Assembly: GCA_021777105.1 (NCBI GenBank)
Contig: JAIQZQ010000005.1
Span: 1-64,000 of the forward strand
From: Candidatus Anammoxibacter sp.
GTDB lineage: Bacteria > Planctomycetota > Brocadiia > Brocadiales > Anammoxibacteraceae
DNA length: 64,000 nt
Reading direction: 5' to 3'
Below are positions 6,153-21,981 of this stretch, piece by piece; position 1 is the stretch's first letter, and every line of letters begins with the position of its first letter. The notes beneath the pieces are model-generated. The model searched no databases. It saw only the letters and a program-made list of their open reading frames with translations, and was not told the origin of the DNA. Both the position numbers and the translations under genes were made by a program.

Positions 6153-6417
6153 TTTGCTGCCTTAAGTAAATCTGCAATAGCGCTTTCAAGCAGGAAAATA
6201 AAAAAGTCCTAACTCTCTGTTAAATAAACATGTTAAACGGTTCGTAATTTAATATTTGGGACTTAATTGTGACTGCTGAATAGTAAATTGATATCCGTGA
6301 TAAACATATTGAGCAAAAGAACAAATTTAATAAGATTTGCGGCTATCTGAGCTATTTAATTTGTTGATTTAAACAGAGAAAGGAGGTGGTTTAAGAGGGC
6401 CTGAATATAGTTTTTAA

Positions 6418-6474
6418 ATGAACGGCAAAGCAAAAGAGTTTTTCAAATTTGCAAAGAACCCGCCTGATATTTAA
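6418..6474 (+). other. Possible leader peptide MNGK..., 18 codons
   Basis: ATG AAC GGC AAA opens an 18-codon frame that ends 58 bases before the start of the first fibre protein. The NGK-x-x-(E)F core recurs before the other paralogues (ATG start at 18200, GTG at 16510, non-standard CTG at 8339, decayed at about 20780). An AAAGGAGG lies about 35 bases upstream, too far to be a normal ribosome binding site for it. It may be a short translated leader or simply a conserved RNA element. Confidence 0.35.
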
Positions 6475-6532
6475 TTAATTTGAATTGTATAGATTTATAA
6501 CTATATTTTTAGTAATAGAGAGGGGAAACAAA

Positions 6533-7456
6533 ATGAGATTAAGTATAAAAAACGCGTTTTTTGCGGGAATAATAGGATTTGTGGCAATATTTTCAACTAT
6601 TTGCGGTATAGTTTCAGCGGAAGAGGAGAGGAATTACACAATTGCAACCGGGAGCGACCCATTGCAAGCTCTTGATCATGCAGATTACGGCTTGCCGATT
6701 CTTCAGCCTTCTACCCCTGCTATACAACAGCATGGAAATATCAACATTGGGGGCGCAGGATTGTTTGGAGACGGCGTGGGTATTGGCACTGAAAATCCAG
6801 CCGGCATTTTGCACGTAGTTGGAACAACCACAATATTTTCAGGTTCGGTTGGTGTGGGCACTGAAACGCCGGTTACAGAACTGCATGTTATAGGTACGGT
6901 TACGGCAACCGCGTTTGAGGGAGATGGGTCGTTATTGACTGGTATAACTGCGGGAGGATCCGGTGAAGACACAACTAACGATTCGTGGACAGGAACCGGC
7001 TCGGTATATACAGCTTCCGGCAACGTAGGCATCGGCACAACGACGACGCCACAGGCGGATTTGCATATAAAAACCGAATCTCAAACTGAAATAAAAATCC
7101 AAACTACCCAAGCAAATGGAGATGCTCACATTCAATACACCAATGACTCGCTCCGAGATTGGCGAGCAGGTATGCGAGGTATTACTGCGAGCGCTGATTA
7201 TTTTTATATAAGAGATGAAACCGCCGCAGCGGATCGTATAGTTGTTGATACTTCCGGCTACGTCGGCATTGGGACGGCGGCGCCTGATGAAAAGTTTGAA
7301 GTTGAATTTGGCTCAACCTCCAAGGATATTGAGTTAGGCGTGGGTACAACTGATCCGGACGTTACATTTGTTACTTTGAGGAGTCCAAATGGAACAAAGT
7401 ATTATATAACAGTTAACGACAGCGGGACTTTTACATCTTCAACTTCAAAACCATAA
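6533..7456 (+). CDS. Secreted fibre-repeat surface protein, paralogue 1 of 5
   Basis: 307 residues from ATG at 6533 (MRLSIKNAFFAGIIGF), chosen because AGAGAGGGGAAA precedes it and the same start context occurs in all five paralogues. Signal peptide of about 29 residues ending near GIVSA, then EEERNYTIATGSD. The N-terminal module has the DPLQALDHADYGLPILQ allele (shared with paralogues 3 and 5). It is followed by short repeats of the form GVGIGTE-x-P-x-x-x-LHV and TATAFEGDGSLLTG, of the type found in phage tail fibres and other trimeric beta-helical fibres. A GEDTTNDSW linker is shared with paralogue 5, and the ADLHIK...RDWRAGMR body is shared with paralogue 3. The C-terminus is unique. Function unknown; an exported adhesive or surface-layer fibre is the reasonable inference. 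Confidence 0.8.
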   Translation: MRLSIKNAFFAGIIGFVAIFSTICGIVSAEEERNYTIATGSDPLQALDHADYGLPILQPSTPAIQQHGNINIGGAGLFGDGVGIGTENPAGILHVVGTTTIFSGSVGVGTETPVTELHVIGTVTATAFEGDGSLLTGITAGGSGEDTTNDSWTGTGSVYTASGNVGIGTTTTPQADLHIKTESQTEIKIQTTQANGDAHIQYTNDSLRDWRAGMRGITASADYFYIRDETAAADRIVVDTSGYVGIGTAAPDEKFEVEFGSTSKDIELGVGTTDPDVTFVTLRSPNGTKYYITVNDSGTFTSSTSKP

Positions 7457-7485
7457 TAGAATTTAGGACGCTGTTGAAGTTTACC

Positions 7486-7528
7486 ACATGCCGGCGCAGG
7501 CTTATAGACTGCGTCGGCATGTTTCTTA
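7486..7528 (+). terminator. Hairpin after fibre paralogue 1
   Basis: ACATGCCGGCGCAG (7486-7499) pairs with CTGCGTCGGCATGT (7509-7522) with one wobble, followed by TTCTT. A strong stem with a weak T-run 30 bases after the stop codon; probably a factor-independent terminator. Confidence 0.65.
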
Positions 7529-7830
7529 ACCGGACAAAACGCATGGCAAAGAAGTGAGCTCAAACGGATTTTAACGTTGTGGATCATCTAAAAAATTAAG
7601 CCGACGAGCGGCAGATAATTGTATTAAAACAATCTTTTTCAATATACAGCCGATGACCGAAATGAAGAACCAATGTGCTTTTAAACTTTTTTAACTATAG
7701 AGCTGACGCATAAACTACATAAGTTGTTATAAAATAAGACGTTAATCCCAAAAATAAGAATAGTATTTTGTAAAATGGCGGAATGTTTTTACAAAAATAA
7801 GGATTTACCTGTGTCAAAGCGGTCAAACAT

Positions 7831-8410
7831 TCACATTACATCTTCATTTTACAAATTTCAAAATCTTTAAATAATCACAAAGTTTTTGCTTTTCTTAGTG
7901 CCTTTGCGTCTTTGTGGCTAAAATTGCTTTTGATTCTATAAATTAAAGTTTATGCAGAAGCTGCTTAAGCAGCGCCCTCAAACAATTCTGCTCCGTATTC
8001 CCTCAATTTTAAAAACAAGTCAATAAATCCGCAAAAAACAGTTTTTCCACAAAATGCAAAAATAATTTCGTTCCGAAACCACATAAAGCAACTACTTAGA
8101 AACCCTACATGGTCGCAAGTGTATCATATAGCAACAACAAGAGTTACAACTTGCGGCAATTTTGAACCCCTTACACGGACTACCTAATTTGTAGGGGCAC
8201 ACCACTACAAGGCATAGGGTTTTCCCTGATTGACAAAATTTTGTTAATTCGATAACAATATTCAGGTTATGCATTCCGTTCATTGCTATTTATTTTTTTA
8301 TTTAAATCGGGAAAGGAGGGTGTTAAGGGGGTAATGGTCTGAACGGCAAGTCGAACGAGTTCTAAGAATATATTTGTCAAAATTTTTTAATAAATGAGAG
8401 GGGAAACAAT
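7831..8410 (+). repeat. Long conserved upstream block, copy before paralogue 2
   Basis: About 580 bases nearly identical to 15998-16579 before paralogue 3; the right-hand 380 bases also match 17881-18270 (before paralogue 4) and, more weakly, 20465-20848 (before paralogue 5). Landmarks in order: CTACTTAGAAACCCTACATG (8092-8111), CGCAAGT...ACTTGCGG inverted pair, hairpin GTAGGGG-CACA-CCACTAC (8191-8208), AAGGCATAGGGTTTTCCC, promoter (8230-8258), AAAGGAGG near 8312, NGK leader element (8339-8365), GAGAGGGGAAACA, ATG. No gene is seen inside it. Confidence 0.85.
8230..8258 (+). promoter_or_regulatory. Promoter of fibre paralogue 2
   Basis: Consensus -35 TTGACA at 8230-8235, 17-base spacer, TAACAA at 8253-8258. 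The same arrangement with an identical spacer length occurs at 10443, 16401, 18092 and 20657. Predicted start of transcription about 8265 gives a leader of about 145 bases. Confidence 0.65.
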
Positions 8411-9256
8411 ATGAGATTAAGTATAAAAAATGTGTTTGTTGCAGGGGCAATCGGGTTTGCGGCACTATTTTCAACTATTTGCGGCGTAGTTTCAGCGGAA
8501 GAGGAGAAAAATTACACAATAGCCACAGGGAGCGATTTGATTACAGGTTCTAACCATCTTGACCTCATATATGACGTTATTCCTGTTTTACAGGATGAGA
8601 CCCCGGCCAACCAGCAGCATGGAAATATCAACATCGAGGGCACGGGATTATTTGGAGAGGGGCTTGGCATTGGAACTACAACCCCGGCCGGTATTTTACA
8701 CGTTGTTGGAACAACAACAATATTTTCAGGCACTGTTACTGCGTCATTGTTTGTAGGCGACGGTTCAGGGTTGACCAGCGTCGGCGATGGTAATTCTTTA
8801 GACGCGTCGGACGGCAGCCCGGAGAATGCCGTATTTGTGGATGCAAACGGCAATGTCGGCATTGGAACTACGGGGCCTTCTGCTTTTTTGGAAGTTACCG
8901 GCGAAAATGAAGGCGCTTGGGCAACATTCATAAGCAACACGGATGCGGATAATGGTTTTGGATTAAAGGTTAGGTCTGGTGATGATAATAATACTTTAGC
9001 TTTTAAAGTGGAAAATATTAACACGAATACACTCTTATCGGTAGATGGTGACGGCAACGTCGGCATCGGTGTAACGTGGCCGAGCGCCGCGCTTGAAGTA
9101 GATGGAGGAGTTGTTCCCAAAAAAGTGACAACCGATCCATGCGGATCGGGATACCCGGAAGCTGTTCTGTTTTACAATGACACAAGCGATTATTTTTGCT
9201 ATTGCAACGGCAGTGGCGTGGATAAGAGAGTATATGACAACGGGGCTTGTTTTTGA
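8411..9256 (+). CDS. Secreted fibre-repeat surface protein, paralogue 2 of 5
   Basis: 281 residues. Signal peptide MRLSIKNVFVAGAIGF...GVVSA is nearly the same as in the other four copies. The N-terminal module is of the second allele, DLITGSNHLDLIYDVIPVLQ, shared only with paralogue 4. Fibre repeats include LGIGTTTPAGILHVVG and NVGIGTTGP; the linker GDGNSLDASDGSPENAVF is shared with paralogues 3 and 4. The unique C-terminus has four cysteines in its last 40 residues (DPCGSG, YFCYC, GACF), so it may be disulfide-stabilised. Exported; receptor or surface function unknown. Confidence 0.8.
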   Translation: MRLSIKNVFVAGAIGFAALFSTICGVVSAEEEKNYTIATGSDLITGSNHLDLIYDVIPVLQDETPANQQHGNINIEGTGLFGEGLGIGTTTPAGILHVVGTTTIFSGTVTASLFVGDGSGLTSVGDGNSLDASDGSPENAVFVDANGNVGIGTTGPSAFLEVTGENEGAWATFISNTDADNGFGLKVRSGDDNNTLAFKVENINTNTLLSVDGDGNVGIGVTWPSAALEVDGGVVPKKVTTDPCGSGYPEAVLFYNDTSDYFCYCNGSGVDKRVYDNGACF

Positions 9257-9317
9257 TGTTGGGGCGTATCCGCCACGGCCAAATACATAAACTAACAAAA
9301 CCACTGGTTGGGGTGTT

Positions 9318-9351
9318 AGGTAGGTTCAAGTCTTAAGGCTTGAACCTACCT
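9318..9351 (+). terminator. AGGTAGGTTCAAG hairpin after paralogue 2
   Basis: AGGTAGGTTCAAG and CTTGAACCTACCT form a perfect 13-bp stem around an 8-base loop; no T-run, so termination is only inferred. It is also a long member of the TTCAAG palindrome family and is followed by AACTTTGCT. Confidence 0.5.
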
Positions 9352-9393
9352 GATCTAAACTTTGCTCCGCAAAGAATAAATTAAAAATACTGT

Positions 9394-9888
9394 TTATTTG
9401 TTTTTTAATTTCTCAATTAATGTTTGTTTAAGAATAAGAATAGCCAATTTATCTTTTTCACGCATTGTCTGCTCTTTTACTTCAATTAATTTTTCCAGAG
9501 AAAGAGCCTTGACACTTAACTTGCCGGCGCGCAATTCATTGCTGTTTTCTATTAAATCCTCATAACCATATCCATTGCCGATTGTTCCCGGAATATCAAG
9601 AGGGCCGTGTTTTGTCATTATGAGCAAATGTCCGGTAGCCGCTAAATGTGAAGCCTCGGATTTCAACCGCAAATCAGGCCTTTCACGAAAAAAGGCATCC
9701 AGTTCATTAAGCGCGGATAACAGCTTTTGAATATTATCATCATTGCGGGAATGAACCAAATCCAGATCAAATGTAGAAATAGGAGCGCCGTTAAGCACGG
9801 CGCACACTCCGCCTACAATAATAAAATCAACTTCATATTTGTTTAGAGCTTTTAGTATTTTTAAGAAATCAGGAATCGTCGTCGGCAT
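9394..9888 (-). CDS. Nucleotidyltransferase-fold protein (MNT/AbiEii-like)
   Basis: 164 residues. The N-terminal part FLKILKALNKYEVDFIIVGG followed by STFDLDLVHSR is the minimal nucleotidyltransferase fold: the GG helix start and a D-x-D metal pair (DLDL). The rest is helical with many Lys/Glu (EKLIEVKEQTMREKDKLA). Such proteins often pair with a small upstream gene, as here, where a frame with the matching signature overlaps its start by about 20 bases. Possible roles are toxin-antitoxin or tRNA/protein nucleotidylation; none can be assigned. A truncated second copy lies at 15567-15965. Confidence 0.75.
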   Translation of the reverse strand: MPTTIPDFLKILKALNKYEVDFIIVGGVCAVLNGAPISTFDLDLVHSRNDDNIQKLLSALNELDAFFRERPDLRLKSEASHLAATGHLLIMTKHGPLDIPGTIGNGYGYEDLIENSNELRAGKLSVKALSLEKLIEVKEQTMREKDKLAILILKQTLIEKLKNK

Positions 9889-10087
9889 CGCGTAGTTCCA
9901 TAATTGATTGAATGTTGCGCTGTAGGGTTAGCAAACGCTCAAGAGGCGAAAGCGACAACATCCATCTAATCAAAGTAAGGTCTACTCCATCGTTACTAAA
10001 CAGGCGCTCATCACTGTTAGCTCTCGAAGCGTTTAAATCTCTATTTTCATAATAGCTATTATTGCTGTTAATTTCGCGCCGGTCAAT
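9869..10087 (-). pseudogene. Small partner of the nucleotidyltransferase, no usable start
   Basis: An open frame on the minus strand reads ...DGVDLTLIRWMLSLSPLERL...QSIMELRDADDDS and stops at 9869, overlapping the nucleotidyltransferase ATG by about 20 bases. The LIRWMLSLSPLERL-x-x-LQ pattern is what I know from small genes that precede this kind of nucleotidyltransferase. No ATG, GTG or TTG starts the frame before the conserved part (first in-frame ATG is inside it), so the 5' end is probably lost or frameshifted. Called from hand translation. Confidence 0.5.
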
Positions 10088-10174
10088 TTAAATTTCATCT
10101 ATTTAAATTAACCCGGCAGCAACCATAAACCAATAGGGATGTAATTGATCAATACGGAGTATTGTTGATGTCAG

Positions 10175-10206
10175 GTGTGGTTCAAGTCGTGAGACTTGAA
10201 TCACAC
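10175..10206. repeat. TTCAAGTC palindrome, copy 3
   Basis: GTGTGGTTCAAGTC and GACTTGAATCACAC flank a 4-base loop; a 14-bp stem with one mismatch. No T-run. Confidence 0.7.
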
Positions 10207-10214
10207 AATGGGCC

Positions 10215-10500
10215 TAAATTTTAAAAACAAGCCAATAAATCCGCAAAAAACAGTTTTTTCCACAAAATTGAAAAATAATTTCGTTCCGAAACCGCATAAA
10301 GCCACTACTTAGAAACCCTACATGGCGGCAAGCGTATCATACGTCAACAACAAGAGTTACAACTTGCGGCAATTTTGAACCCCTTACACGGCCCCCCTAA
10401 TTTGTAGGGGCTCACCATTACAAGGCATAGGGTTTTCCCTGATTGACAAATTTTTTGTAACTCGATAAAAATATACCGGTTACGCTTTCCGCGCATTGAT
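10215..10500 (+). repeat. Orphan copy of the fibre-gene upstream block
   Basis: Matches the fibre-gene upstream block from the ACAGTTTTTTCCACAAAA segment through the hairpin (10402-10423) and promoter (TTGACA at 10443-10448, TAAAAA at 10466-10471), but the AAAGGAGG leader and the fibre gene are missing; similarity stops near 10490. Its hairpin has decayed on one side (CTCACCATTACAA). It points toward the large surface protein that starts 470 bases downstream, so it is either a residue of a deleted sixth fibre gene or a promoter captured by the large gene. Confidence 0.75.
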
Positions 10501-10581
10501 GTTTCATTCTCCATGTCATTTGTCGCATCATTAAAAATCCTTTTTCACAATTCAGGCTGCTAAAGAAATATTTTCTGATTG

Positions 10582-10615
10582 TGACATAGATCACAATAAA
10601 TTGTGATCTATGTCA
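10582..10615. promoter_or_regulatory. 34-bp CRP/FNR-type palindrome
   Basis: TGACATAGATCACAAT (10582-10597) and its exact reverse complement (10600-10615) are separated by 2 bases: a 16-bp perfect dyad. Within it, 10580-10595 reads TGTGA-N6-TCACA, the exact CRP-family consensus, and TGTGA-N6-TCATA lies at 10602-10617. A TATACT at 10639-10644 would put the second site at about -41.5, a class II activator position. Binding by a CRP/FNR protein is inferred; no such regulator is in the window. Confidence 0.65.
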
Positions 10616-10638
10616 TAGAAATTTGTTTTTAAAAAGTG

Positions 10639-10644
10639 TATACT
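10639..10644 (+). promoter_or_regulatory. Possible -10 element of the large surface protein gene
   Basis: TATACT, 24 bases after the palindrome, with no good -35 box, which fits an activator-dependent promoter. It would give an untranslated leader of about 320 bases before 10968. Confidence 0.35.
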
Positions 10645-10967
10645 GTCCATCGTTTTTTATATATTTATTAGCAATGAGCATGCCGTTATAATGTAAGTAA
10701 TTATTTGGCGGTATGTCGATACATATGTAATGTAATTAAATTGTGAATGTTATGACTAAAATACCACAAACCTCCGATATATATTGACTATATTTGTATA
10801 TACGGTAAAATATGCGCTTTAAAAAAGCGAACCATTTAAATTGTGTAGTATTTATTTTAAATGGAAGAACAAAGAAGATAACATCAGAATTAACAGATAT
10901 AGCTAAATCGCTCGAAAGTAAGACGTTAATAACATAGCGTAACAATTAATTAAAAGGAGAAAATATA

Positions 10968-13900
10968 ATGAAGCATAAAAATTTTAAAACCCCAGTGACA
11001 ACACGCTATTTTGCCATTCCTTCCATTTTGGTTTTTTCGTTTTTAGTCTGCTCACTGATGACGGCATTTAGCGCGAATTCCGCGCGCGGTCAGAGCCTAA
11101 TTGGCTCCGTTAGCTTAGACAGTGAGGGAGCTTCGCCACGTGGAGTTGGAGTAAACGCGACGACCAACCGCATCTATGTGGCTAATTATAATAGCGACAC
11201 TGTAAGCGTAATAGATGGTTCAGATAACAGCGTAACCGCTGTCGTAGGTGTGGTTTCCGGGCCAAAAAGCGTTGGAGTAAATGCGGCGGCCAACCGCATC
11301 TATGTGGTTGGTGAAAAGACCGACGATGTCAGTGTAATAGATGGCGCAAATAATAGCGTAATTGCCACGGTAGGCGTGGGCAATTTCCCCTGGGGAGTTA
11401 GAGTAAACGCAATGACCAACCGCGTCTATGTCGCTAATATGTCCGACGATACTTTAACCGTAATAGATGGCGCGGATAATAGCGTAATTGCCACGGTTGA
11501 CGTAGGCGCCGATCCACGTGGAGTTGGAGTAAACGAAACGGCCAACCGCATCTATGTGGCTAATTTTAATAGCAACACTGTAAGCGTAATAGATGGTTCG
11601 GATAATAGCGTAACCGCCACGGTTGGTGTGGGCGCTAATCCGCAGTATGTTGGAGTAAACGAAACGACCAACCGCATATATGTGAGCAATGTTGGCATTG
11701 ATACTATAAGCGTGATAGACGGCGCAAATAATAGCGTAATTGCTACGCTTGATGTGGGAGATTCACCGCAGAGTGTTGGTGTAAACGAAGCGGCCAACCG
11801 CATCTATGTGGCTAATAGGCATGATAGCTCTGTGACCGTAATAGAGGGGTCAGACAATAGCATAATTACTGCTGTTGGTGTGGGGAAAACACCATGGGGA
11901 GTTGGAGTAAACGCAACGACCAACCGCATTTATGTGTCTAACAACGACGATATAGCCGTAATAGACGGCAACCCGCCGCCGGGGCCGACAATATCTGCCA
12001 TAACCGCTGATGATCCTGACAATGCCGATGCCATATACTCAAACGGCGACACAATAACAGTAGTTTTCTCAGAAGCAACTAACCAACCTACAGTTACAAC
12101 TAAGGCTGACCTTGATACCTTGTTTACATTTTCAAAAAACATAGGCGCAGATTATACAGGCGCGTGGAGCAACTCCTCAACTCTTATTATAACAATATCA
12201 GACGTAAACGGCGAGGCAGCGCCATGGGATTTGATATTAACGTTAAAAGCCGGCGGCAATTTGAAAAATGCGGGAGGCTTTTCCCTTGAATCAACCGCAA
12301 TTTCTCCATTGTTAACAACCGGCGATTGGGGGACGCTGGCAGGGCCTACAATAATATCCGTCACCGCTGATGATCCTGACAACACAGATGCCGTATACTC
12401 GAACGGAGACACAATAACAGTAGTTTTCTCCGAAGCAACTAACCAACCTACCGCAACAACTAAAGCTGATTTAGACGCTGATTTTGCGAACAATGGGACG
12501 GGACTGTTTCGATTCTCTCAGAATTTAGGCTCAGATTATACCGGCGCATGGAGCAATGCGTCTACGTTAGTTATAACCATAGTAGATGCAACAGGAGCAA
12601 CCCCTCCAACTATAGGAGGTCTGACAATTTTAACAGCCCTTGATCAAACCTTTATAAAAAATGCATCAGAGACATCGCTAGGCTCAACTGGAACTTCTCC
12701 AGCCATAACCGGCGATTGGGGAACACTGGCAGGGCCTACAATAATATCCGTCACCGCTGACGATCCTGACAACACAGATTCCATATACTCGAACGGCGAC
12801 ACAATAACAGTAGTTTTCTCCGAAGCAACTAACCAACCTACCGCAACAACTAAAGCTGATTTAGACGCTGCTGATTTTGCGAACGATGGGACGGGGCTGT
12901 TTAGATTTTCTCAAAATTTAGGCGTAAACTTTACCGGCGCATGGGGCAATGCGTCAACTTTAGTTATAACCATAGTAGACGTTACAGGGGCAACCCCTCC
13001 AACTATAGGTGGTCTGACAATTTTAACAGCCCTTGATCAAACCGCTATAAAAAACGCATCAGAGACATCTCTAGGCTCAAGTGGAACTTCTCCAGCCATA
13101 ACCGGTGATTGGGGGACGTTTGTTGCGCCAACACCAACACCAACACCAATTCCAACTCCAAGCGCAACAGCAACACCAAGTCCAACTCCAAGCGCAACAG
13201 CAACGCCGAGTCCGGCGCCGTCACCGACAGTAGCGCCAACGCCGGAATGTAAAGAGCCTGTGTCTGATTTCGAAGCGGACAAACACTCTATTTTAGAAGA
13301 TGGAACAGTTAAATTTACTAGCCTTTCAAAAGAGAATCCAACAACATGGATATGGGACTTTGGAGATGGTTCGCCACTAGATAAGAATAAAAATCCATCA
13401 CATGTTTATATAAAAGCGGGAAAGTATAATGTAACCCTTACTATAAGCAATTCATGCGGTTCTGATACTAAGGAAAAAGAGGATTTTATAGAAGTTCTAT
13501 CATCCACGGTAAAACCTGTTGCCGATTTTAGCGTTAATACAACATCCGGACAGGAACCTTTAACTATAAAATTTCAGGATAAAACATCCGGAGCCCCAAA
13601 TAGCTGGTTTTGGGAGTTTGGGGATGGGGATTCAAGCAATGATCAAAATCCGTCGCATACATATGAAAAATGCAAAGAATACAGCCCCTCTTTAAGAGTA
13701 AGCAATGAAAAGGGCGAAGATTCGATTAAAAAGGATAACTTGATAGATGTAATATGCCTGGGAGAACCAAATGCTGATTTTTCAGCCGATAAGAGATCAG
13801 GATTTGCTCCGCTTGATGTTCAATTTACAAATAAATCAACAGGAGACCCTACCGGTTGGATTTGGGAATTTGGAGATGGAGGTGAAACTTCAGAGCAAAA

Positions 13901-15479
13901 TCCCTCGCATACATATAAAAGAGCCGGCATATTTACAGTAGGTTTAATGGCCGGTAACAGCATAGGGATTGACTGGAATATAAAGACAAATTTTATATTA
14001 GTTCAATCAAAAAATGAGCCTACAGCGGACTTTACAGCAACCCCACAAGCGGGTATAGTTCCCATGACAGTCTTGTTCTCGGATATTTCCACGGGCGACC
14101 CAACTTCATGGATATGGGATTTTGGAGACGGCGCTATAAGCAGGCTTAAGAATCCTCAACATACCTATAGAGATGAAGGTTTTTATAGTGTAAGCTTAAC
14201 AGCGAGCAACGCTAACGGCTTAGATGTTGAAAATAAAGTTAACCTTATTAATGCTCTGGGTGAAGGCATTCCCGTCGCTGAATTTTTTGCCGAGCCTATT
14301 ACCGGATTTAGCCCAATGACCGTAGAATTTACCGATATATCAAATGGGAACATAAAAAACTGGTCGTGGGACTTTGGCGACGGTTCTACAAGCTCACAAC
14401 AAAATCCAAAGCATACCTATAAGGATCAGGGGATTTTTAACGTCGAAATGATTGTAAGCGGCTCAACAGGGACAGATTCGGAAAAGAAAACAAATCTGAT
14501 TAATGTAACGGATGGCGCCTCCGGGCAAGATTTATCAGCGGCTTTTAGCGTAAACAATAGGGCAGGGCAATCAGGTCTGAAAGTAAAATTCAACAACCTT
14601 TCAAGCGGGAACGCAGCCGGCCGGCTATGGAACTTTGGAGACGGCAAAACTGAAACTACGAAATCACCAGAACATGTCTACAATACGGAAGGTGTTTTTG
14701 ATGTAAGTTTAACGACGTATAATGATAACGGTCAGGCAAGCACTGTTTACAGGCCGGCTTATATTGAAATTAAAGATAAGGACGAATTACCGGCAACGCC
14801 AACAGAGACTGCAACGCCAACAGAAACACCAGGAAAACCGCCTAAAGCTGATTTTGCGTCAAACGTAACAAGGGGTAACGCTCCGTTAGAGGTTAGATTT
14901 GTAGATTTGTCTGAAGGCAACCCTACATCATGGATATGGGCATTTGGGGACGGAGAAGTAAGCGGCCAACAAAATCCAATCCATGTATATACAAAGAAAG
15001 GCAAATACACGGTTAAATTGACGGTTTCAAACAAGCTGGGCGAGGACACGGTTAAAGAGGAAAAGTTTATAGATGTTAAAAAGCCGAAAAAGAACAAAGG
15101 TTGCGTAGCTTCATCTGTTATGGATAGCAAATCAGGTTTAAGGGCGCTAAGGTTGTTTAGAGACATGGTTATGTCAAAAACCAGCGCGGGATTGAAGTTG
15201 ATAAGCTGGTATTATAAGCATTCAGGCGAGGTTGAAAATATTCTTAAAGCCAACCTAGCCTTGAAATCAAAGGCGGCTGATGTCTTAACCCGTCTGGTTG
15301 GCGTATTGCGGAACAATGTTAATAAAGATTCTGTAAACCAGGTTGTAAATAGTTCAATAGAAGAGGCATTGATTTCTGAAGTTAACAGTTTGTTTGATGA
15401 AATATCGGCGCGTGGAAGTAGCGAATTGAAAGCCGCTATTAGAGATGCCAAAGATTTGGTTTACGAGAATAGCAAATAG
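10968..15479 (+). CDS. Giant secreted protein: YVTN propeller, Ig-like repeats, PKD domains, CFI-box-like C-terminus
   Basis: 1503 residues; AAAGGAG precedes the ATG. Signal peptide about residues 1-42. Residues about 45-335 hold seven YVTN-type repeats (TTNRIYVANxxxDTVSVIDG), a complete seven-blade propeller. Residues about 340-717 are three repeats opening TADDPDNxDxIYSNGDTITV, probably Ig-like. A Thr-Pro-rich linker (about 720-762) leads to six PKD domains, a second Thr-Pro linker near 1275, then a seventh PKD; each carries W-x-FGDG. The tail (about 1378 on) has a single Cys in GCVASSV followed by ALRLFRD and WYYKHSGEV, which matches a diverged CFI-box-CTERM domain (usual CFIATAAYGS...LR-x-FRD...YY-x-SP). 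Likely an exported adhesion or sorting substrate anchored through its C-terminus. It stands between fibre paralogues 2 and 3 and may be under CRP/FNR control. Confidence 0.88.
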   Translation: MKHKNFKTPVTTRYFAIPSILVFSFLVCSLMTAFSANSARGQSLIGSVSLDSEGASPRGVGVNATTNRIYVANYNSDTVSVIDGSDNSVTAVVGVVSGPKSVGVNAAANRIYVVGEKTDDVSVIDGANNSVIATVGVGNFPWGVRVNAMTNRVYVANMSDDTLTVIDGADNSVIATVDVGADPRGVGVNETANRIYVANFNSNTVSVIDGSDNSVTATVGVGANPQYVGVNETTNRIYVSNVGIDTISVIDGANNSVIATLDVGDSPQSVGVNEAANRIYVANRHDSSVTVIEGSDNSIITAVGVGKTPWGVGVNATTNRIYVSNNDDIAVIDGNPPPGPTISAITADDPDNADAIYSNGDTITVVFSEATNQPTVTTKADLDTLFTFSKNIGADYTGAWSNSSTLIITISDVNGEAAPWDLILTLKAGGNLKNAGGFSLESTAISPLLTTGDWGTLAGPTIISVTADDPDNTDAVYSNGDTITVVFSEATNQPTATTKADLDADFANNGTGLFRFSQNLGSDYTGAWSNASTLVITIVDATGATPPTIGGLTILTALDQTFIKNASETSLGSTGTSPAITGDWGTLAGPTIISVTADDPDNTDSIYSNGDTITVVFSEATNQPTATTKADLDAADFANDGTGLFRFSQNLGVNFTGAWGNASTLVITIVDVTGATPPTIGGLTILTALDQTAIKNASETSLGSSGTSPAITGDWGTFVAPTPTPTPIPTPSATATPSPTPSATATPSPAPSPTVAPTPECKEPVSDFEADKHSILEDGTVKFTSLSKENPTTWIWDFGDGSPLDKNKNPSHVYIKAGKYNVTLTISNSCGSDTKEKEDFIEVLSSTVKPVADFSVNTTSGQEPLTIKFQDKTSGAPNSWFWEFGDGDSSNDQNPSHTYEKCKEYSPSLRVSNEKGEDSIKKDNLIDVICLGEPNADFSADKRSGFAPLDVQFTNKSTGDPTGWIWEFGDGGETSEQNPSHTYKRAGIFTVGLMAGNSIGIDWNIKTNFILVQSKNEPTADFTATPQAGIVPMTVLFSDISTGDPTSWIWDFGDGAISRLKNPQHTYRDEGFYSVSLTASNANGLDVENKVNLINALGEGIPVAEFFAEPITGFSPMTVEFTDISNGNIKNWSWDFGDGSTSSQQNPKHTYKDQGIFNVEMIVSGSTGTDSEKKTNLINVTDGASGQDLSAAFSVNNRAGQSGLKVKFNNLSSGNAAGRLWNFGDGKTETTKSPEHVYNTEGVFDVSLTTYNDNGQASTVYRPAYIEIKDKDELPATPTETATPTETPGKPPKADFASNVTRGNAPLEVRFVDLSEGNPTSWIWAFGDGEVSGQQNPIHVYTKKGKYTVKLTVSNKLGEDTVKEEKFIDVKKPKKNKGCVASSVMDSKSGLRALRLFRDMVMSKTSAGLKLISWYYKHSGEVENILKANLALKSKAADVLTRLVGVLRNNVNKDSVNQVVNSSIEEALISEVNSLFDEISARGSSELKAAIRDAKDLVYENSK

Positions 15480-15566
15480 TAATTAATCATTGCAGCTCCG
15501 GGTATCATAGCGAATTCCCATTCGAAATTGGTATCCCGGAGGTAGTGGCAGAGTTTAGTTATGCCG

Positions 15567-15965
15567 CTAAGGATCAGCAATATTAGTCTGATTTAATAAA
15601 CATTCGGGGCAAATCTTTAATGTTTGTTTAAGAACAGGGATAGCCAATTTATCTTTTTCACGCATTGTCTGCTCCTTTGCTTCAATTAATTTTTCCAGAG
15701 AAAGAGCCTTAACACTTAACTTGCCGGCGCGCAATTCATTGCTGTTTTCTATTAAATCATCATAACAATATCTATTGCCGATTGTTCCCAGAATATCAAG
15801 AGGGCCGTGTTTTGTCATTAGGAGCAAATGTCCGGTAGCCGATAAATGTGAAGCCTCGGGTTTCAACCGCAAATCAGGCCTTTTACGAAAAAAGGCATCC
15901 AGTTCATTAAGCGCGGATAACTGCTTTTGAATATTATATTCATTGCGGGAATGAACCAAATCTGA
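15567..15965 (-). pseudogene. 5'-truncated duplicate of the nucleotidyltransferase
   Basis: Nearly identical at DNA level to the 3' three-quarters of the gene at 9394-9888 (same HSRN, RPDLRLK, SHLxATGHLL, ELRAGKLSVKALSLEKLIE blocks). Homology starts just inside the catalytic DLDLVHSR, so the nucleotidyltransferase active-site half is absent. The upstream junction (about 15965) runs into unrelated sequence and then, at 15998, into the fibre-gene upstream block. The last codons also diverge (KICPECLLNQ). Almost certainly inactive, and a marker of segmental duplication. Confidence 0.85.
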
Positions 15966-15997
15966 ATCTATTGGCCGAAATTGCTATTCTCGGACAC

Positions 15998-16579
15998 CCT
16001 GTTTACATTGCATCTTCATTTTACAAATTTCAAAATCTTTAAATAATCACAAAGTTTTTGCTTTTCTTAGCGCCTTTGCGTCTTTGTGGCTAAAATTGCT
16101 TTTGATTCTATAAATTAAAGTTTATGCAGAAGCTGCTTAAGCAGCCCTCAAACAATTCTGCTCCGTATGCCCTCAATTTTAAAAACAAGTCAATAAATCC
16201 GCAAAAAACAGTTTTTTCCACAAAATGCAAAAATAATTTCGTTCCGAAATCGCTAAATACCACTACTTAGAAACCCTACATGGTCGCAAGTGTATCATAT
16301 AGCAACAACAAGAGTTACAACTTGCGGCAATTTTGAGCCCCTTACACGGCCCCCCTTATTTGTAGTGGCACACCACTACAAGGCATAGGGTTTTCCCTGA
16401 TTGACAAAATTTTGCTAAATCGATAACAATATTCAGGTTAGGCATTCTGTTCATTGCTATTTAGTTTTTTTATTTAAATTGTGAAAGGAGGTTTTTAAAG
16501 GATTAGGGCGTGAACGGCAAGATGAACGAGTTCTAAAAATATTTTTGTCAATATTTTAGTAAATGAGAGGGGAAACAAA
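15998..16579 (+). repeat. Long conserved upstream block, copy before paralogue 3
   Basis: About 580 bases, nearly identical to 7831-8410. The hairpin GTAGTGG-CACA-CCACTAC (16362-16379) is fully paired here, whereas copy 2 has a G:A mismatch. The AAAGGAGG is near 16484. A GTG-initiated MNGKMNEF frame is at 16510-16536. Confidence 0.88.
16401..16429 (+). promoter_or_regulatory. Promoter of fibre paralogue 3
   Basis: TTGACA at 16401-16406, 17-base spacer, TAACAA at 16424-16429, identical in layout to the other copies. Confidence 0.65.
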
Positions 16580-17695
16580 ATGAGATTAAGTATAAAAAAC
16601 GCGTTTTTTGCAGTGGCAATTGGATTTGCCATAGTAGTTTCGTCAATTTGCGGCGTAGTGTCAGCGGAAGGGGAGAAGAATTACACAATTGCAACCGGCA
16701 GCGACCCGTTGCAAACGCTTAATCACGCAAACTATGGCCTTCCAATTTTGCAACCGTCAACCCCAGGCACACAACAGCATGGAAATATCAATATTGAAGG
16801 AACAGGCTTGCTTGGAGAAGGCCTGGGAATTGGAACTGAAAATCCCGCCGGCATTTTGCACGTAGTTGGAACAACCACAATATTTTCAGGTTCGGTTGGC
16901 ATAGGCACTGAAACGCCTGCAACAGAGCTCCATGTCATAGGAACAGTAACGGCAACTGCGTTTGAAGGAGACGGTTCGTTATTAACAGGTATTAGTAGTT
17001 CAGGTGATGGACATTCTCTAGACGCGTCGGATGGCAGCCCTGAGGATGTTATCCTTGTGGATGCGTCCGGCAATGTCAACATAGCCACGTCAGTGATTGA
17101 TATAACGTCAAGCGTAGACAACGTTGACCTTTTGAATGCAAGGCGTCCGGACGGAACTGTTATAGCAAGGTTGGCCATTGGCGGAGATAGCAATACTGAT
17201 GGTGTTTTTGTATTAGAAAACGGATCCAGCACAAACAAAATCATGCTGCAGGCAAATGGAATGACATTTTTTAATGGCGGTAATGTCGGCATCGGGACGG
17301 CGGCTCCGGGCGCGGATTTGCATATTAAAAACAGTTCTCAAACTGAAATAAAAATACAAACTACTCAAGTAAATGGAGATGCCCACATTCAATACACCAA
17401 TGACTCACTTCGTGATTGGCGAGCAGGTATGCGTGATATAGGCGGAGGAAATGATTATTTTTATATAAGAGATGAATCCGCCGGAGGCGGTACGGATCGT
17501 ATAGTTATTGACACTTCCGGCAACGTCGGCGTCAGCACGGCGAGCCCGGCGCGGCCACTTCACGTTAACGATGTGATGCGGATTGAACCAAGATCTTCGG
17601 CTCCTTCAAGCGCTAGCCAAGGCGACATATATATGAATTCTACAACAAGCAAATTAATGGTGTATGACGGCTCAACCTGGCAAGCTTGCTGGTAA
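16580..17695 (+). CDS. Secreted fibre-repeat surface protein, paralogue 3 of 5
   Basis: 371 residues, the longest of the set. Same signal peptide (MRLSIKNAFFAVAIGF...GVVSA). N-terminal module of the DPLQTLNHANYGLPILQ allele, like paralogues 1 and 5, but its linker GDGHSLDASDGSPEDVIL is that of paralogues 2 and 4. A 50-residue insert (DITSSVDNVDLLNARRPDG...) has no counterpart in the others. The ADLHIKNSSQTEIKIQ...RDWRAGMRDI body is about 80 percent identical to that of paralogue 1. C-terminal SQGDIYMNSTTSKLMVYDGS resembles the capping domain of tail-fibre-like proteins. The combination makes it a mosaic of modules seen separately in its relatives. Confidence 0.82.
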   Translation: MRLSIKNAFFAVAIGFAIVVSSICGVVSAEGEKNYTIATGSDPLQTLNHANYGLPILQPSTPGTQQHGNINIEGTGLLGEGLGIGTENPAGILHVVGTTTIFSGSVGIGTETPATELHVIGTVTATAFEGDGSLLTGISSSGDGHSLDASDGSPEDVILVDASGNVNIATSVIDITSSVDNVDLLNARRPDGTVIARLAIGGDSNTDGVFVLENGSSTNKIMLQANGMTFFNGGNVGIGTAAPGADLHIKNSSQTEIKIQTTQVNGDAHIQYTNDSLRDWRAGMRDIGGGNDYFYIRDESAGGGTDRIVIDTSGNVGVSTASPARPLHVNDVMRIEPRSSAPSSASQGDIYMNSTTSKLMVYDGSTWQACW

Positions 17696-17706
17696 TAAAA
17701 ATGTAA

Positions 17707-17742
17707 ACCTGCCCCCTATAAAAAGAAAATTAGGGGGCAGGT
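17707..17742 (+). terminator. Hairpin after paralogue 3
   Basis: ACCTGCCCCCTA and TAGGGGGCAGGT form a perfect 12-bp stem around a 12-base A-rich loop, 12 bases after the stop codon. No long T-run. Confidence 0.6.
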
Positions 17743-17836
17743 CAACTATATGTAATTGGTTTATAGTGTGACTGTTAGTAAATGGGTTGCATAAGTTGCC
17801 TATCTCAAATAATTCTAGTTTTTGCCTGCGCAACCA

Positions 17837-17866
17837 GGTTGATTGAAGTCTTCAGACTTGAACCAA
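17837..17866. repeat. TTCAAGTC palindrome, copy 4
   Basis: GGTTGATTGAAGTC and GACTTGAACCAAC pair with one mismatch and a 4-base loop; same family as 6130-6152. Confidence 0.65.
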
Positions 17867-18091
17867 CAATAGTAAAACACGCCAAAAATCCGCAAAAAAC
17901 AGTTTTTTCCACAAAATACAAAAATAATTTCGTTCCGAAATCGCTAAATATCACTACTTAGAAACCCTACATGGTCGCAAGTGTATCATATAGCAACAAC
18001 AAGAGTTACAACTTGCGGCAATTTTGAACCCCTTACACGGTCCCCCTAATTTGTAGTGGCACACCACTACAAGGCATAGGGTTTTCCCTGA

Positions 18092-18120
18092 TTGACAAAA
18101 TTTTGCTTATTCGATAACAA
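18092..18120 (+). promoter_or_regulatory. Promoter of fibre paralogue 4
   Basis: TTGACA at 18092-18097, 17-base spacer, TAACAA at 18115-18120. Confidence 0.65.
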
Positions 18121-18199
18121 TATCCCGGTTATGTATTCCGTTCATTGCTGTTTAGTTTTTTTATTTAAATCGGAAAGGAGGTTTTTAAAGGATTAGGAT

Positions 18200-18250
18200 A
18201 TGAACGGCAAGTCGAACGAGTTCGAAGAATATCTTTGTCAAAATTTTTAG
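18200..18250 (+). other. Possible leader peptide MNGKSNEF..., 16 codons
   Basis: ATG-started frame ending in TAG 20 bases before the fibre gene ATG. The NGK-x-x-EF core is shared with the elements at 6418, 8339 and 16510. Whether it is translated is open; the AAAGGAGG lies about 20 bases ahead. Confidence 0.35.
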
Positions 18251-18270
18251 TAAAAGAGAGGGGAAACAAT

Positions 18271-19218
18271 ATGAGATTAAGTATAAAAAACGCGTTTTTT
18301 GCAGGGGCAATCGGGTTTGCGGCGCTATTTTCAACTATTTGCGGCGTAGTTTCAGCGGAAGAGGAGAAAAATTACACAATAGCCACAGGCAGCGATTTAA
18401 TTACGGATTTAAGCCATCTTGACCTAATATATGACGTTATTCCTGTTTTACAGGATGATACTCCGGGCAATCAGCAGCATGGAAATATAAACATTGAAGG
18501 CACGGGATTATTTGGGGAGGGCCTTGGCATTGGGACTACAACCCCAGCCGGAATTCTGCATGTAATCGGCACAACCACAATATTTTCAAGCTCTGTTGGC
18601 ATAGGCACTGAAACGCCTGGAACAGAGCTTTATGTTATCGGGACGGTAACCGCGACGGCGTTTGTAGGCGGTAGTTCGGGATTGGCAATCTCTGGAGACG
18701 GACACTCTTTAGACGCGCTGGACGGCAATCCGGTTGACGCTGTATTTGTGGATGCGGTAGGCGATGTAGGCATTGGTGTGGCAAGCCCATTGGCGCAATT
18801 GCATGTGAAAACCGGGACATCCAGCGTATCGGAGGTAAGTATACATGGAGATGAGTTTGTTTTGGAAAATGACGACAATGTTGGCATGACAATGTTAGGA
18901 GGGACATCGGGAGCCGCGAGAATTAAGTTTGGGGATAGCGGGGATAATCAGACAGGTGAAATACAATATAATCTTAATAGCGAGTATATGACATTTTTCA
19001 CAAACGGCCACTTTGAACGTGTGAGGATTGATTCCTCCGGCGACGTCGGCATCGGAACGTCGGCTCCAAATAGTAAATTACAAGTAAGCGGTGGAGATAT
19101 TTATGTCGACACTCAAAGCAATGGCTTAATTTTAAAGGACACCAATGGCTCTGGGTGCCATAGAATAACTGTTAACTCAGCTGGTAGTATATCTGCAACA
19201 GCTGTAACTTGCCCCTAA
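18271..19218 (+). CDS. Secreted fibre-repeat surface protein, paralogue 4 of 5
   Basis: 315 residues from ATG at 18271 (preceded by AGAGAGGGGAAACA). N-terminal module DLITDLSHLDLIYDVIPVLQ is the second allele, as in paralogue 2. Repeats VGIGTETPGTELYVIGTVTA and GIGVASPLAQLHVKTG, the latter with the SLDALDGNPVDAVFVD linker. The middle (SEVSIHGDEFVLENDDNVGM and following) is not found in the other four. C-terminus with two Cys (GSGCHRI, AVTCP). Same exported-fibre interpretation; start and signal peptide are firm, function unknown. Confidence 0.8.
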   Translation: MRLSIKNAFFAGAIGFAALFSTICGVVSAEEEKNYTIATGSDLITDLSHLDLIYDVIPVLQDDTPGNQQHGNINIEGTGLFGEGLGIGTTTPAGILHVIGTTTIFSSSVGIGTETPGTELYVIGTVTATAFVGGSSGLAISGDGHSLDALDGNPVDAVFVDAVGDVGIGVASPLAQLHVKTGTSSVSEVSIHGDEFVLENDDNVGMTMLGGTSGAARIKFGDSGDNQTGEIQYNLNSEYMTFFTNGHFERVRIDSSGDVGIGTSAPNSKLQVSGGDIYVDTQSNGLILKDTNGSGCHRITVNSAGSISATAVTCP

Positions 19219-19309
19219 GGAACTTTAAGGTTCAGCAGTTTAATGTTTTGATCTGCGCTGTTCGGCATGATATTAGAGATAACAATTGTCTAAAGTAAAA
19301 ATAAATAGT

Positions 19310-19352
19310 GGGCAGGTAAACTGTGTGTTATTGGTTTGTAGTTTACCTGCCC
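19310..19352 (+). terminator. Hairpin after paralogue 4
   Basis: GGGCAGGTAAACT and AGTTTACCTGCCC form a perfect 13-bp stem with a 17-base loop. The same GGCAGGTAAAC sequence forms the stem after paralogue 5, and GGGGGCAGGT that after paralogue 3. Confidence 0.65.
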
Positions 19353-19381
19353 TTAAAATTTGTTATCAGAAATTGGATAAG

Positions 19382-19831
19382 CTAATCAGGAATGTTTTTC
19401 AAATTTTTAACATCTTCAATGTCCTTGGCCCTTCCTGTTGCCAGTTTATTTTTAATTAAATTATCTTTGCTTATTATTGGTATTTGTAAATTCCCTAGTT
19501 CAACAATCAATCTATCAGTCCATGCTTCGTCAAAACTAACGCCGTCTATATACGTTGATATGTCAATCCTTCTCGGCCTAACTCCTAATTGCAATATGTT
19601 TCCTTCATTCGCAAAAGTGTCTTTCTGGAAATGATCTTTAGGGGCTCCGAATTCAATTAATGATCTATATATTTTCTCTGAGTTTTCTTTATCAGCCTTA
19701 ACCCATATGTCTATATCTCCTGTAGCGCGTGGGAAACCATGCGAGCCCAAAGCGTATGCGCCGACAGTAAGAAACTTAACATCATTTTTTAATAATATTG
19801 ACAACATCTCTTTGTAGTCCTGATTCAGCAT
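19382..19831 (-). CDS. Nucleotidyltransferase-fold protein, second family member
   Basis: 149 residues. LLKNDVKFLTVGAYALGSHG followed by RATGDIDIWVK gives the nucleotidyltransferase fold with a D-x-D pair (DIDI); a third acidic residue is likely in RRIDISTY. Not closely related to the gene at 9394 but with the same two-gene layout: its start overlaps the end of a 63-residue gene by 50 bases. Probably a toxin-antitoxin or defence-like cassette (DUF6036/AbiEii-type), but no substrate can be named. Minus strand, opposite to the fibre genes. Confidence 0.78.
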   Translation of the reverse strand: MLNQDYKEMLSILLKNDVKFLTVGAYALGSHGFPRATGDIDIWVKADKENSEKIYRSLIEFGAPKDHFQKDTFANEGNILQLGVRPRRIDISTYIDGVSFDEAWTDRLIVELGNLQIPIISKDNLIKNKLATGRAKDIEDVKNLKNIPD

Positions 19832-19973
19832 TTCCGTGTCCCTGTAAAGCGATTATATCATCTGTTATTTCATTAACCATTTCAAATCTGGATGATATGT
19901 CCCCTTCAACATAATCATCGTCATTTTCGTCGTCATATCTTAATACCCGAACTACGCTTCTATCCATTTTCAT
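19782..19973 (-). CDS. Small partner of the second nucleotidyltransferase
   Basis: 63 residues from ATG at 19973 (MKMDRSVVRVLRYDD); an upstream in-frame ATG at 20048 is less likely because the extension looks non-coding. Acidic middle (ENDDDYVEGD), then SRFEMVNEITDDI and a C-terminal LQRDVVNIIKK. This matches the pattern of short genes that precede such nucleotidyltransferases (start with R-x-V, end with LQRV-x-x-I). No clear Shine-Dalgarno. Overlap with the downstream gene suggests translational coupling. Confidence 0.6.
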   Translation of the reverse strand: MKMDRSVVRVLRYDDENDDDYVEGDISSRFEMVNEITDDIIALQGHGNAESGLQRDVVNIIKK

Positions 19974-20127
19974 ACATTTCGCTTTGCTGTTAATGTCATG
20001 TTGCAAAATTTCTGTTTTGCGCACAATAAATCTTATAAATAGTACCAAAGCTCTTCGAAATTACAAATATAATTTTACAGAAAATCTTGATTTATTTTGA
20101 AGCCGAAAGCCCGCAAATAATTGCATT

Positions 20128-20141
20128 AAAACGATCGTTTT
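20128..20141. repeat. AAAACGATCGTTTT palindrome in a duplicated segment
   Basis: Perfect 14-base palindrome. The surrounding 20115-20160 segment (ATAATTGCATTAAAACGATCG... to ACAGCCGATGA) also occurs, diverged, at 7614-7660 downstream of paralogue 1. Confidence 0.55.
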
Positions 20142-20190
20142 CAATAATACAGCCGATGAAAAGAGTGAAAATCCTAAGCGTACCCCGGTT

Positions 20191-20214
20191 GGTTTAAGCC
20201 TCCAGGCATAAACC
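20191..20214. repeat. TTTAAGCC palindrome, copy 5
   Basis: GGTTTAAGCCT-cc-AGGCATAAACC, one mismatch, followed by CTTTGCTACG; a diverged member of the TTCAAGTC family. Confidence 0.55.
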
Positions 20215-20239
20215 TTCCCGACCTAAGCTTTGCTACGTA

Positions 20240-20452
20240 AATGACCACTGAGCAGCTTGTCTGCTCTAGTGAGAATTATGCCCTGGGGGCGAAATGACCA
20301 CTGAGCAGCTTGTCTGCTCTAGTGAGAATTATGCCCTGGGGGCGAAATGACCACTGAGCAGCTTGTCTGCTCTAGTGAGAATTATGCCCTGGGGGCGAAA
20401 TGACCACAAGCCTGCTCGCTCTAACGAGAATTATTACCCCGAATGGGTAAAA
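20240..20452. repeat. 53-bp tandem hairpin repeat, three exact units plus a diverged fourth
   Basis: Units starting at about 20241, 20294 and 20347 are identical; the fourth, at 20400, has diverged. Each unit contains CACTGAGCAG-cttgt-CTGCTCTAGTG, a stem of about 10 bp with a single bulge, then GAGAATTATGCCCTGGGGGC. No spacer variation, so not a CRISPR. It sits between the nucleotidyltransferase cassette and the upstream block of paralogue 5. Confidence 0.9.
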
Positions 20453-20464
20453 TACGCAATAATA

Positions 20465-20848
20465 CGATTTTTTTCTAATTTTCAGAAAATATTTTCGGGC
20501 GGAAACGCATAAAAACTACTACGTAGAAACCCTGCATGGTCAACATTTTATCATATTGCTATGAAATAAGTTACAACTTCATACAATTTCACACACCTTA
20601 CAGCTACCTCTAAATTTGTAGGGGCACACCCCTACATGGCATAGGGTTTTCCCTGATTGACAAAATTTTGCTTATTCGGTAAAAATCCCCCGATTGATCC
20701 TTGCGCTTATTTCTATTTAATTTTTTAACTTAAATTTGGAAAGGAGGTTGTTAAAAAGAGTTTGATCTGCGGTTACAGAATAAACGGCAAGGCAAAATGC
20801 TTTTAAAAATTATTAGTCAATTTTTTAGCTAAAGAGAGGGGAAACAAT
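20465..20848 (+). repeat. Conserved upstream block, copy before paralogue 5
   Basis: The most diverged copy. TACTACGTAGAAACCCTGCATG is near 20517, hairpin TGTAGGGG-CACA-CCCCTACA at 20617-20636 is perfectly paired with different bases from copies 3 and 4 (compensatory change), and AAAGGAGG is near 20740. The NGK leader frame has lost its ATG (AATAAACGGCAAGG). Confidence 0.75.
20657..20685 (+). promoter_or_regulatory. Promoter of fibre paralogue 5
   Basis: TTGACA at 20657-20662, 17-base spacer, TAAAAA at 20680-20685. Confidence 0.6.
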
Positions 20849-21880
20849 ATGAGATTAAGTATAAAAAAAACGTTTTTTGCGGGAATAATCGGGTTTGCAA
20901 CCATGTTTTCGACTATTTGTGGAGTAGTTTCAGCTGAAGAGGAGAAGAATTACACAATTGCAACCGGCAGCGACCCTTTGCAAACGCTTGACCATGCTAA
21001 TTATGGCCTGCCGATTCTGCAGCCGGCTACTCCGGGCAACCAGCAGCACGGGAGCATCCATATTGAAGACACGGGCATGTTTGGAGGTTCGGTCGGCATA
21101 GGCCTGGGCACGGAAACAACACCTGCGGCGGCTTTGCATGTAATAGGCACGCAAACGGCTTTGCATGTGACCGGCAACAACTCAGCATTTTTATCCAATG
21201 TTGGAATAGGCACTGAAACGCCGGCGACGGAGTTGCATGTGCTTGGAGCTGTTACCGCAACCGGAAATATGAACGTTTCAGGCACAATTACCGCGGATTC
21301 ATTTGTAGGTGATGGTTCCGGATTGACGGGGGTAACTGCGGAAGGGGCCGGCGAGGACACAACTAATGATTCGTGGACAGGCATTGGCACTGTTACAACT
21401 ACCGGCAAAGTGGGAATCGGGACAACAGGGCCGGTTATGCCGTTGGTAGTAACAGACAGTGTTCAAGATCTTATGCTGATAGCGCGCAGTAGCGGAACAA
21501 ACGGCGACGAAGCGCGTTTAAACTTTGGTGTCGCTCATAGTTCCTTTATAGGAGCATATGTAACCGGCATTAGAGATGGTGGATCGGGGGAAATGAGTCT
21601 TGCATTTGGTGTAAACAATACTGGAGGTAATCCTATAGAAAAAGTCAGAATTGATAAAAAAGGCAACGTCGGTATCGGCACGACGGCGCCTGCAGCTGGT
21701 CACATACTTGAACTCTCCTCAACTTCGAAAGCGTTCGTCCTTCCCAGGATGACAAAGACACAACGCAATGCGATTACAGGTCAAGTGGCAGGAATGGTGA
21801 TTTATCAAACGGACAATACACCTGGCCTTCGCGTGCATAACGGAACAAATTGGATGAGGTTCACCGAGACCACGGACTAA
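20849..21880 (+). CDS. Secreted fibre-repeat surface protein, paralogue 5 of 5
   Basis: 343 residues. Signal peptide MRLSIKKTFFAGIIGF...GVVSA; N-terminal allele DPLQTLDHANYGLPILQ as in paralogues 1 and 3. It has the most fibre repeats, including SVGIGLGTETTPAAALHVIG, SNVGIGTETPATELHVLG and TADSFVGDGSGLTG. GEDTTNDSWTGIG is shared with paralogue 1. The C-terminus HILELSSTSKAFVLPRMTKT and AGMVIYQTDNTPGLRVHNGT is a widespread terminal segment of fibre-like proteins in Bacteroidetes and phages. Exported; function unknown. Confidence 0.82.
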   Translation: MRLSIKKTFFAGIIGFATMFSTICGVVSAEEEKNYTIATGSDPLQTLDHANYGLPILQPATPGNQQHGSIHIEDTGMFGGSVGIGLGTETTPAAALHVIGTQTALHVTGNNSAFLSNVGIGTETPATELHVLGAVTATGNMNVSGTITADSFVGDGSGLTGVTAEGAGEDTTNDSWTGIGTVTTTGKVGIGTTGPVMPLVVTDSVQDLMLIARSSGTNGDEARLNFGVAHSSFIGAYVTGIRDGGSGEMSLAFGVNNTGGNPIEKVRIDKKGNVGIGTTAPAAGHILELSSTSKAFVLPRMTKTQRNAITGQVAGMVIYQTDNTPGLRVHNGTNWMRFTETTD

Positions 21881-21921
21881 GGAAAGCGTTTTTCATTGAA
21901 AACATAGGCAACTAACAAACG

Positions 21922-21981
21922 AGTGGCAGGTAAACGATTGCATTTCTTTCCGATCCCTTAGAGTTTACCTGTCACTATTTT
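21922..21981 (+). terminator. Hairpin with T-run after paralogue 5
   Basis: AGTGGCAGGTAAAC (21922-21935) pairs with GTTTACCTGTCACT (21963-21976) with one wobble, followed by ATTTTTATTTC. Confidence 0.65.

Follow-up and report, generated by a model that had tools for sequence, protein, structure and literature searches.

A cluster of fibre genes in an anammox planctomycete belongs to a dispersed family of predicted secreted proteins related to mosaic adhesive trimers

Five genes within the window (the whole stretch of 64,000 nucleotides analysed here, on contig C77 of a Candidatus Anammoxibacter sp. assembly) encode fibre-like proteins that begin alike and end differently, raising the question of whether they form a repertoire of surface antigens or receptor-binding proteins, as the sequence-only reading proposed, or something else. 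The array itself was recovered as five intact open reading frames on one strand, starting at 6533, 8411, 16580, 18271 and 20849:

6533-7456, + strand: fibre gene 1, 307 aa; signal peptide, type A N-module, VGIGT repeats, PNG-ITV type cap; without the shared promoter block
8411-9256, + strand: fibre gene 2, 281 aa; type B N-module, NG-W-like cap bearing a cysteine
16580-17695, + strand: fibre gene 3, 371 aa; type A N-module, NG-W cap; match to the solved fibre Bd2133 (8ond), E = 1e-10
18271-19218, + strand: fibre gene 4, 315 aa; type B N-module, PNG-ITV type cap in common with C64_118079
20849-21880, + strand: fibre gene 5, 343 aa; type A N-module, NG-W cap in common with C64_113210

The five proteins (281–371 residues) are similar at their N-termini and then diverge, with full-length identities to the product of 6533 of 48–66%. 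As had been read from the DNA, all five have a common signal peptide, an N-terminal module and VGIGT-type repeats, and their first ~130 residues align closely. A terminator hairpin had also been assigned to each gene; a strong hairpin does lie 3′ of each, yet none of the five is directly followed by a canonical terminator in a simple scan for intrinsic terminators, which leaves this claim only partly supported. Nucleotidyltransferase-like genes (DUF2204/DUF6036) on the − strand are interspersed with the fibre genes at 9394-9888, 15567-15959 and 19382-19831, the second apparently being a truncated copy of the first, and a tandem array of a 53-bp unit in 3.2 identical copies occupies 20239-20407, between a nucleotidyltransferase gene and fibre gene 5.

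The N-terminal 138 residues, used as query, retrieved 13 full copies from the 7.65-Mb genome, spread over six contigs: the window holds five, C64 three, C83 two, and C108, C13 and C34 one each. The eight members outside the window are additions to the earlier reading. All 13 are full-length open frames, encoding proteins of 281–453 aa. The assembly consists of 142 contigs with an estimated contamination of 5.5%; the promoter block described below ties C77, C64, C83 and C108 to one organism, and C13 and C34 less firmly. Three adjacent genes on C18 (814, 342 and 379 aa) read as a hydrazine synthase operon, the first exceeding the PF18582 cut-off, and the host is therefore most likely an anammox bacterium (a Brocadiales planctomycete). 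Its genome is larger than every other Brocadiales genome compared (1.5–5.9 Mb). The full N-module was absent from 74 other genomes of the class, a sample of ~390 genomes of the phylum, the GTDB contig collection (where a scan with a single N-terminus as query gave no match) and IMG/VR, the sole exception outside this genome being a Ca. Scalindua protein that matches it in part.

The N-module is common to all 13 family members. In the five window proteins its constant stretch is EEEKNYTIATGSD...TPGxQQHGNINIEG, and two types can be distinguished, type A (PLQ.LDHANYGLPILQPSTPG) in 6533, 16580 and 20849, and type B (LITDLSHLDLIYDVIPVLQDD) in 8411 and 18271. The constant part ahead of the first repeat comprises about 45–55 residues. 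Over the first 130 residues the median dN/dS is 0.12–0.24, with synonymous sites at dS about 1, showing that the N-module is under purifying selection. The signal peptides, as read from the sequence, have a basic start, a hydrophobic stretch and (I/V)VSA or a similar motif, followed by an acidic mature N-terminus, suggesting that the fibre proteins are exported via Sec-type signal peptides. A lipoprotein anchor was considered and rejected: the signal-region cysteine is not kept across the members and, by eye, nothing fits a lipobox. The repeat VGIGTxxPxxxL, or a close variant of it, occurs 37 times in the 13 members, far beyond chance (mean 0.085 in composition shuffles).

Searched against all PDB sequences, the profile of the 13-protein family gave five matches, all of them to mosaic adhesive trimer (MAT) fibres (8ond, 8oml, 8ojn, 8on4 and 8ol4), with E values from 3.9e-19 (Bd2133, the best) to 9e-4. 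At the profile level, the predicted shaft is thus shown to be homologous to the solved MAT fibres. AlphaFold monomer models of the family proteins were poor; the top three Foldseek matches of a weak monomer model were again MAT fibres, although these matches are weak and corroborative only. The array had been thought not to be a described system, whereas the MAT fibres of Bdellovibrio, its closest solved relatives, have the same kind of anatomy. The MATs of Bdellovibrio bacteriovorus HD100 are described as surface-displayed proteins of this predator in which a signal peptide is followed by a conserved N-terminal domain, a trimeric β-helical shaft and swapped tips with S74, TNF/C1q-like and lectin folds; bacterial glycans are bound by one of them (Caulton et al. 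2024, PMC10769870). The family likewise has a signal peptide, a conserved N-terminal part, the profile-homologous shaft and swapped C-termini that include S74 and C1q/TNF-like domains. By contrast, the MAT N-domain, directly after the signal peptide, has ~130 aa, whereas the lineage-specific N-module is shorter and only a putative counterpart; MAT proteins typically reach ~1,000 aa, compared with 281–453 aa here; the promoter/leader block of ten dispersed family copies found no counterpart in the parts of the MAT description consulted (PMC10769870); and the MAT host is a predator, whereas no sign of predation was seen in the anammox planctomycete. Given the shorter proteins, the shorter constant part, the shared promoter block and the anammox host, we file the family as MAT-like and not as proven MAT. 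The capping-loop motif V-G-G/N-pi-X-X-P-X-X-X-L, taken literally as published and with pi read as aromatic (possibly a misreading), has 0 matches in the family; it is the VGIGTxxPxxxL form, not the literal motif, that aligns with Bd2133.

Closer at hand, other secreted VGIGT fibres of the same genome and of Brocadiales relatives also have signal peptides, VGIGT repeats and S74 or other tips, and several share a TPGxxQxGNINI start. Their constant N-termini, however, differ from that of the family, and none of nine upstream regions compared from other fibre genes of this genome carries the shared promoter block. One such set is a second fibre family of ~11 loci (on C77 (129 kb), C60, C25, C13, C76, C92, C14 and C16) with another constant N-terminus (LKDNTTSSGFSVKEETG...IARFRGDGNVGIGNTSP) and varied tails, among which four upstream regions compared had no promoter in common. 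S74 domains number 10 in this genome, 7 in the nearest relative and 0–3 elsewhere in the class. No relevant literature on tail-fibre-like or S74 surface proteins of anammox bacteria came up in a search.

The C-termini of the five window proteins, previously described as unrelated, fall into two short cap types. Members of the NG-W type (8411, 16580 and 20849) align mutually or to one common third member, while the pairing of 6533 with 18271 in the PNG-ITV type was made mainly by eye. The tail of 18271 matches that of C64_118079, on contig C64, through the final residue, and a 140-residue tail stretch is common to 6533 and 16580 (55% identity). The really different tips, namely C1q, the S74 chaperone and an unrecognised domain, are encoded on contigs other than that of the window. 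Across the family, the tips comprise two S74 members, one C1q, the two short cap types and one unrecognised tip, with C1q (PF00386) and Peptidase_S74 (PF13884) above the Pfam cut-off; a provisional count of seven or more unrelated tips was dropped, as the caps fall into a few classes. The NCBIfam search of all family members gave no match. No binding domain was recognised in the ends of the five window members, and their short caps may bind nothing. The fibres might accordingly be a structural coat or matrix for cell–cell cohesion, biofilm or granule, in which the caps do no more than close the trimer and the variety of tips is tolerated without selection for recognition. Such a coat fits the two short cap types of all five window members as well as the apparent common control of most copies, which would then be made together. 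We nevertheless consider it unlikely, since larger tips, C1q among them, occur on other members, loci have traded caps, and glycans are bound by those MAT tips whose function is known (PMC10769870).

The two ends of the genes appear to have had different histories. In many pairs, DNA similarity extends from about −400 to about +375/+420 of the coding sequence, beyond which it is absent or patchy, and the tails have a median identity of 28%. Judged by the promoter, the nearest neighbour of a copy is mostly on the same contig, whereas judged by the cap it is mostly on another. Moreover, similarity of the N-modules and similarity of the caps are uncorrelated (Mantel r = −0.10, p = 0.76). Local promoter neighbours, distant cap neighbours and the missing correlation together fit a local duplication of promoter and N-module, with exchange of tips between distant loci.

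The promoter block that had been noted for four of the five genes was borne out: a block of ~375 bp lies 5′ of 8411, 16580, 18271 and 20849, whereas 6533 has only the 5′UTR part. The corresponding features of the window are:

6378-6532, + strand: leader of gene 1; GAAAGGAGG and the AACGGCAA motif of the family leader kept, promoter part absent
8034-8410, + strand: promoter/leader block of gene 2; palindromes, TTGACA at 8230, GAAAGGAGG at 8311
10246-10504, + strand: orphan promoter part, without leader and without fibre gene
16204-16578, + strand: promoter/leader block of gene 3
17895-18270, + strand: promoter/leader block of gene 4, query of the genome-wide block search
20486-20848, + strand: promoter/leader block of gene 5

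Abutting the start codon, the block recurs 11 times genome-wide: ten copies immediately precede family members and one is a gene-less remnant; an additional, twelfth match is only the 27-base leader end of 6533. The promoter part is missing from 6533 and from the members on C13 and C34. The core of the block, GGCATAGGGTTTTCCCTGATTGACAAA, has nine matches in the genome (at most three mismatches), exclusively within blocks, and its reversed control has 0. In the palindrome TTGTAGGGGCACACCCCTACAA, the 16204 and 17895 copies carry matching changes in both arms (TAGTGG/CCACTA); the block has another short palindrome, TAGGGTTTTCCCTGA. The block also contains a promoter match, TTGACA-18-AACAAT. The leader element GAAAGGAGG, which we take to resemble the STAB-SD mRNA stabiliser of Bacillus cry3A, precedes the start codon by 97–110 bases in four of the window genes and by 155 in 6533. 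The mean column identity of the block is 78% despite a dS near 1 in the N-module, which points to selection on the block. Two further candidates within it were rejected: a short leader peptide (xNGKxxEF) in the 5′UTR, of which the copies keep neither start codon nor frame, and a structured RNA in the promoter/UTR block, for which RNAalifold gave just 2 of 42 pairs with both sides changed. A search of Rfam over the window matched a tRNA only. The orphan block lies upstream of gene 10968, which encodes a 1503-aa PKD/beta-propeller surface-type protein, and is followed at 10582-10615 by TGACATAGATCACAAT-AA-ATTGTGATCTATGTCA, a perfect palindrome reminiscent of a CRP/FNR site; a similar TGTGAC...ATCACA stretch is present upstream of the fibre member on C13.

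Because ten copies stand behind one conserved block that is found elsewhere only as an orphan, most of the set would be expected to be co-expressed under one regulator, with no one-at-a-time switching. A constant front, a variable back and clustered copies are also what a switching antigen or receptor repertoire would display, with one copy expressed at a time or with inversion or gene conversion into an expression site. Such switching is very unlikely, however: the full promoter block is present at ten copies, all 13 members are intact, with no broken copies among them, and inverted-repeat scans of the region gave only weak or self-palindromic arms and no convincing invertible ones. Thus, of the repertoire first proposed, exported proteins with one constant end and exchangeable ends are supported, but antigen switching is not.

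An origin from the tail fibres of a prophage or a phage-like injection machine, the alternative originally offered, is very unlikely: GNVGIGT repeats resemble those of phage long tail fibres and tailspikes (T4 gp36-like PF03903, PHROG 9942 and 18345, T5 6f45-type), with E values down to 4e-11 to PHROG tail-fibre families, albeit under the cut-off of Pfam gp36 (PF03903), and the S74 chaperone of two members is common in phage fibres, but the family consists of stand-alone chromosomal genes with their own promoter, Sec-type signal peptides and no phage neighbours, the window flanks being his genes, a response regulator and the like with no phage gene recognised by Pfam, the ORFs at other family loci looking housekeeping by eye, and IMG/VR holding no relative of the N-module.

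Overall, we consider it probable that the window cluster is the largest of a 13-member chromosomal family of secreted fibres that are MAT-like in their working and mostly co-expressed under one regulator. A Sec signal peptide would export each fibre protein, the constant N-module would be positioned at the cell envelope, and the VGIGT repeats would form a short trimeric β-helical shaft closed by an exchangeable C-terminal cap or tip, which in some members may bind a ligand. One conserved promoter/leader block would drive ten copies, and the set would have expanded as promoter and N-module were duplicated locally and tips were traded between distant loci. The trimeric state, the surface location and anchoring, ligand binding and the common regulator are inferred, as are the signal peptides. 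A more specific version, possible but doubtful, is that the dispersed repertoire of mosaic adhesive fibres is switched on all at once by one dedicated regulator, through the conserved palindromes that precede the −35 box, as a recognition coat for partners, prey or surfaces. What is new here is the anammox setting, the lineage-specific N-module and one promoter type common to dispersed copies. We know of no earlier case of a MAT-like repertoire run as one regulon, or of one in an anammox bacterium; if the single-regulator version is true, this would be the first of both.

Anammox bacteria live in aggregates and biofilms, and the means by which their cells recognise neighbours are, to our knowledge, poorly known. 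With the family, repertoires of mosaic adhesive fibres would reach beyond a predator to an anammox planctomycete with a large genome, and most of one such repertoire would be tied to a single promoter type. The family names candidate neighbour-recognition genes and a candidate common switch for anammox, and its compactness makes it suited to the study of fibre tip exchange.
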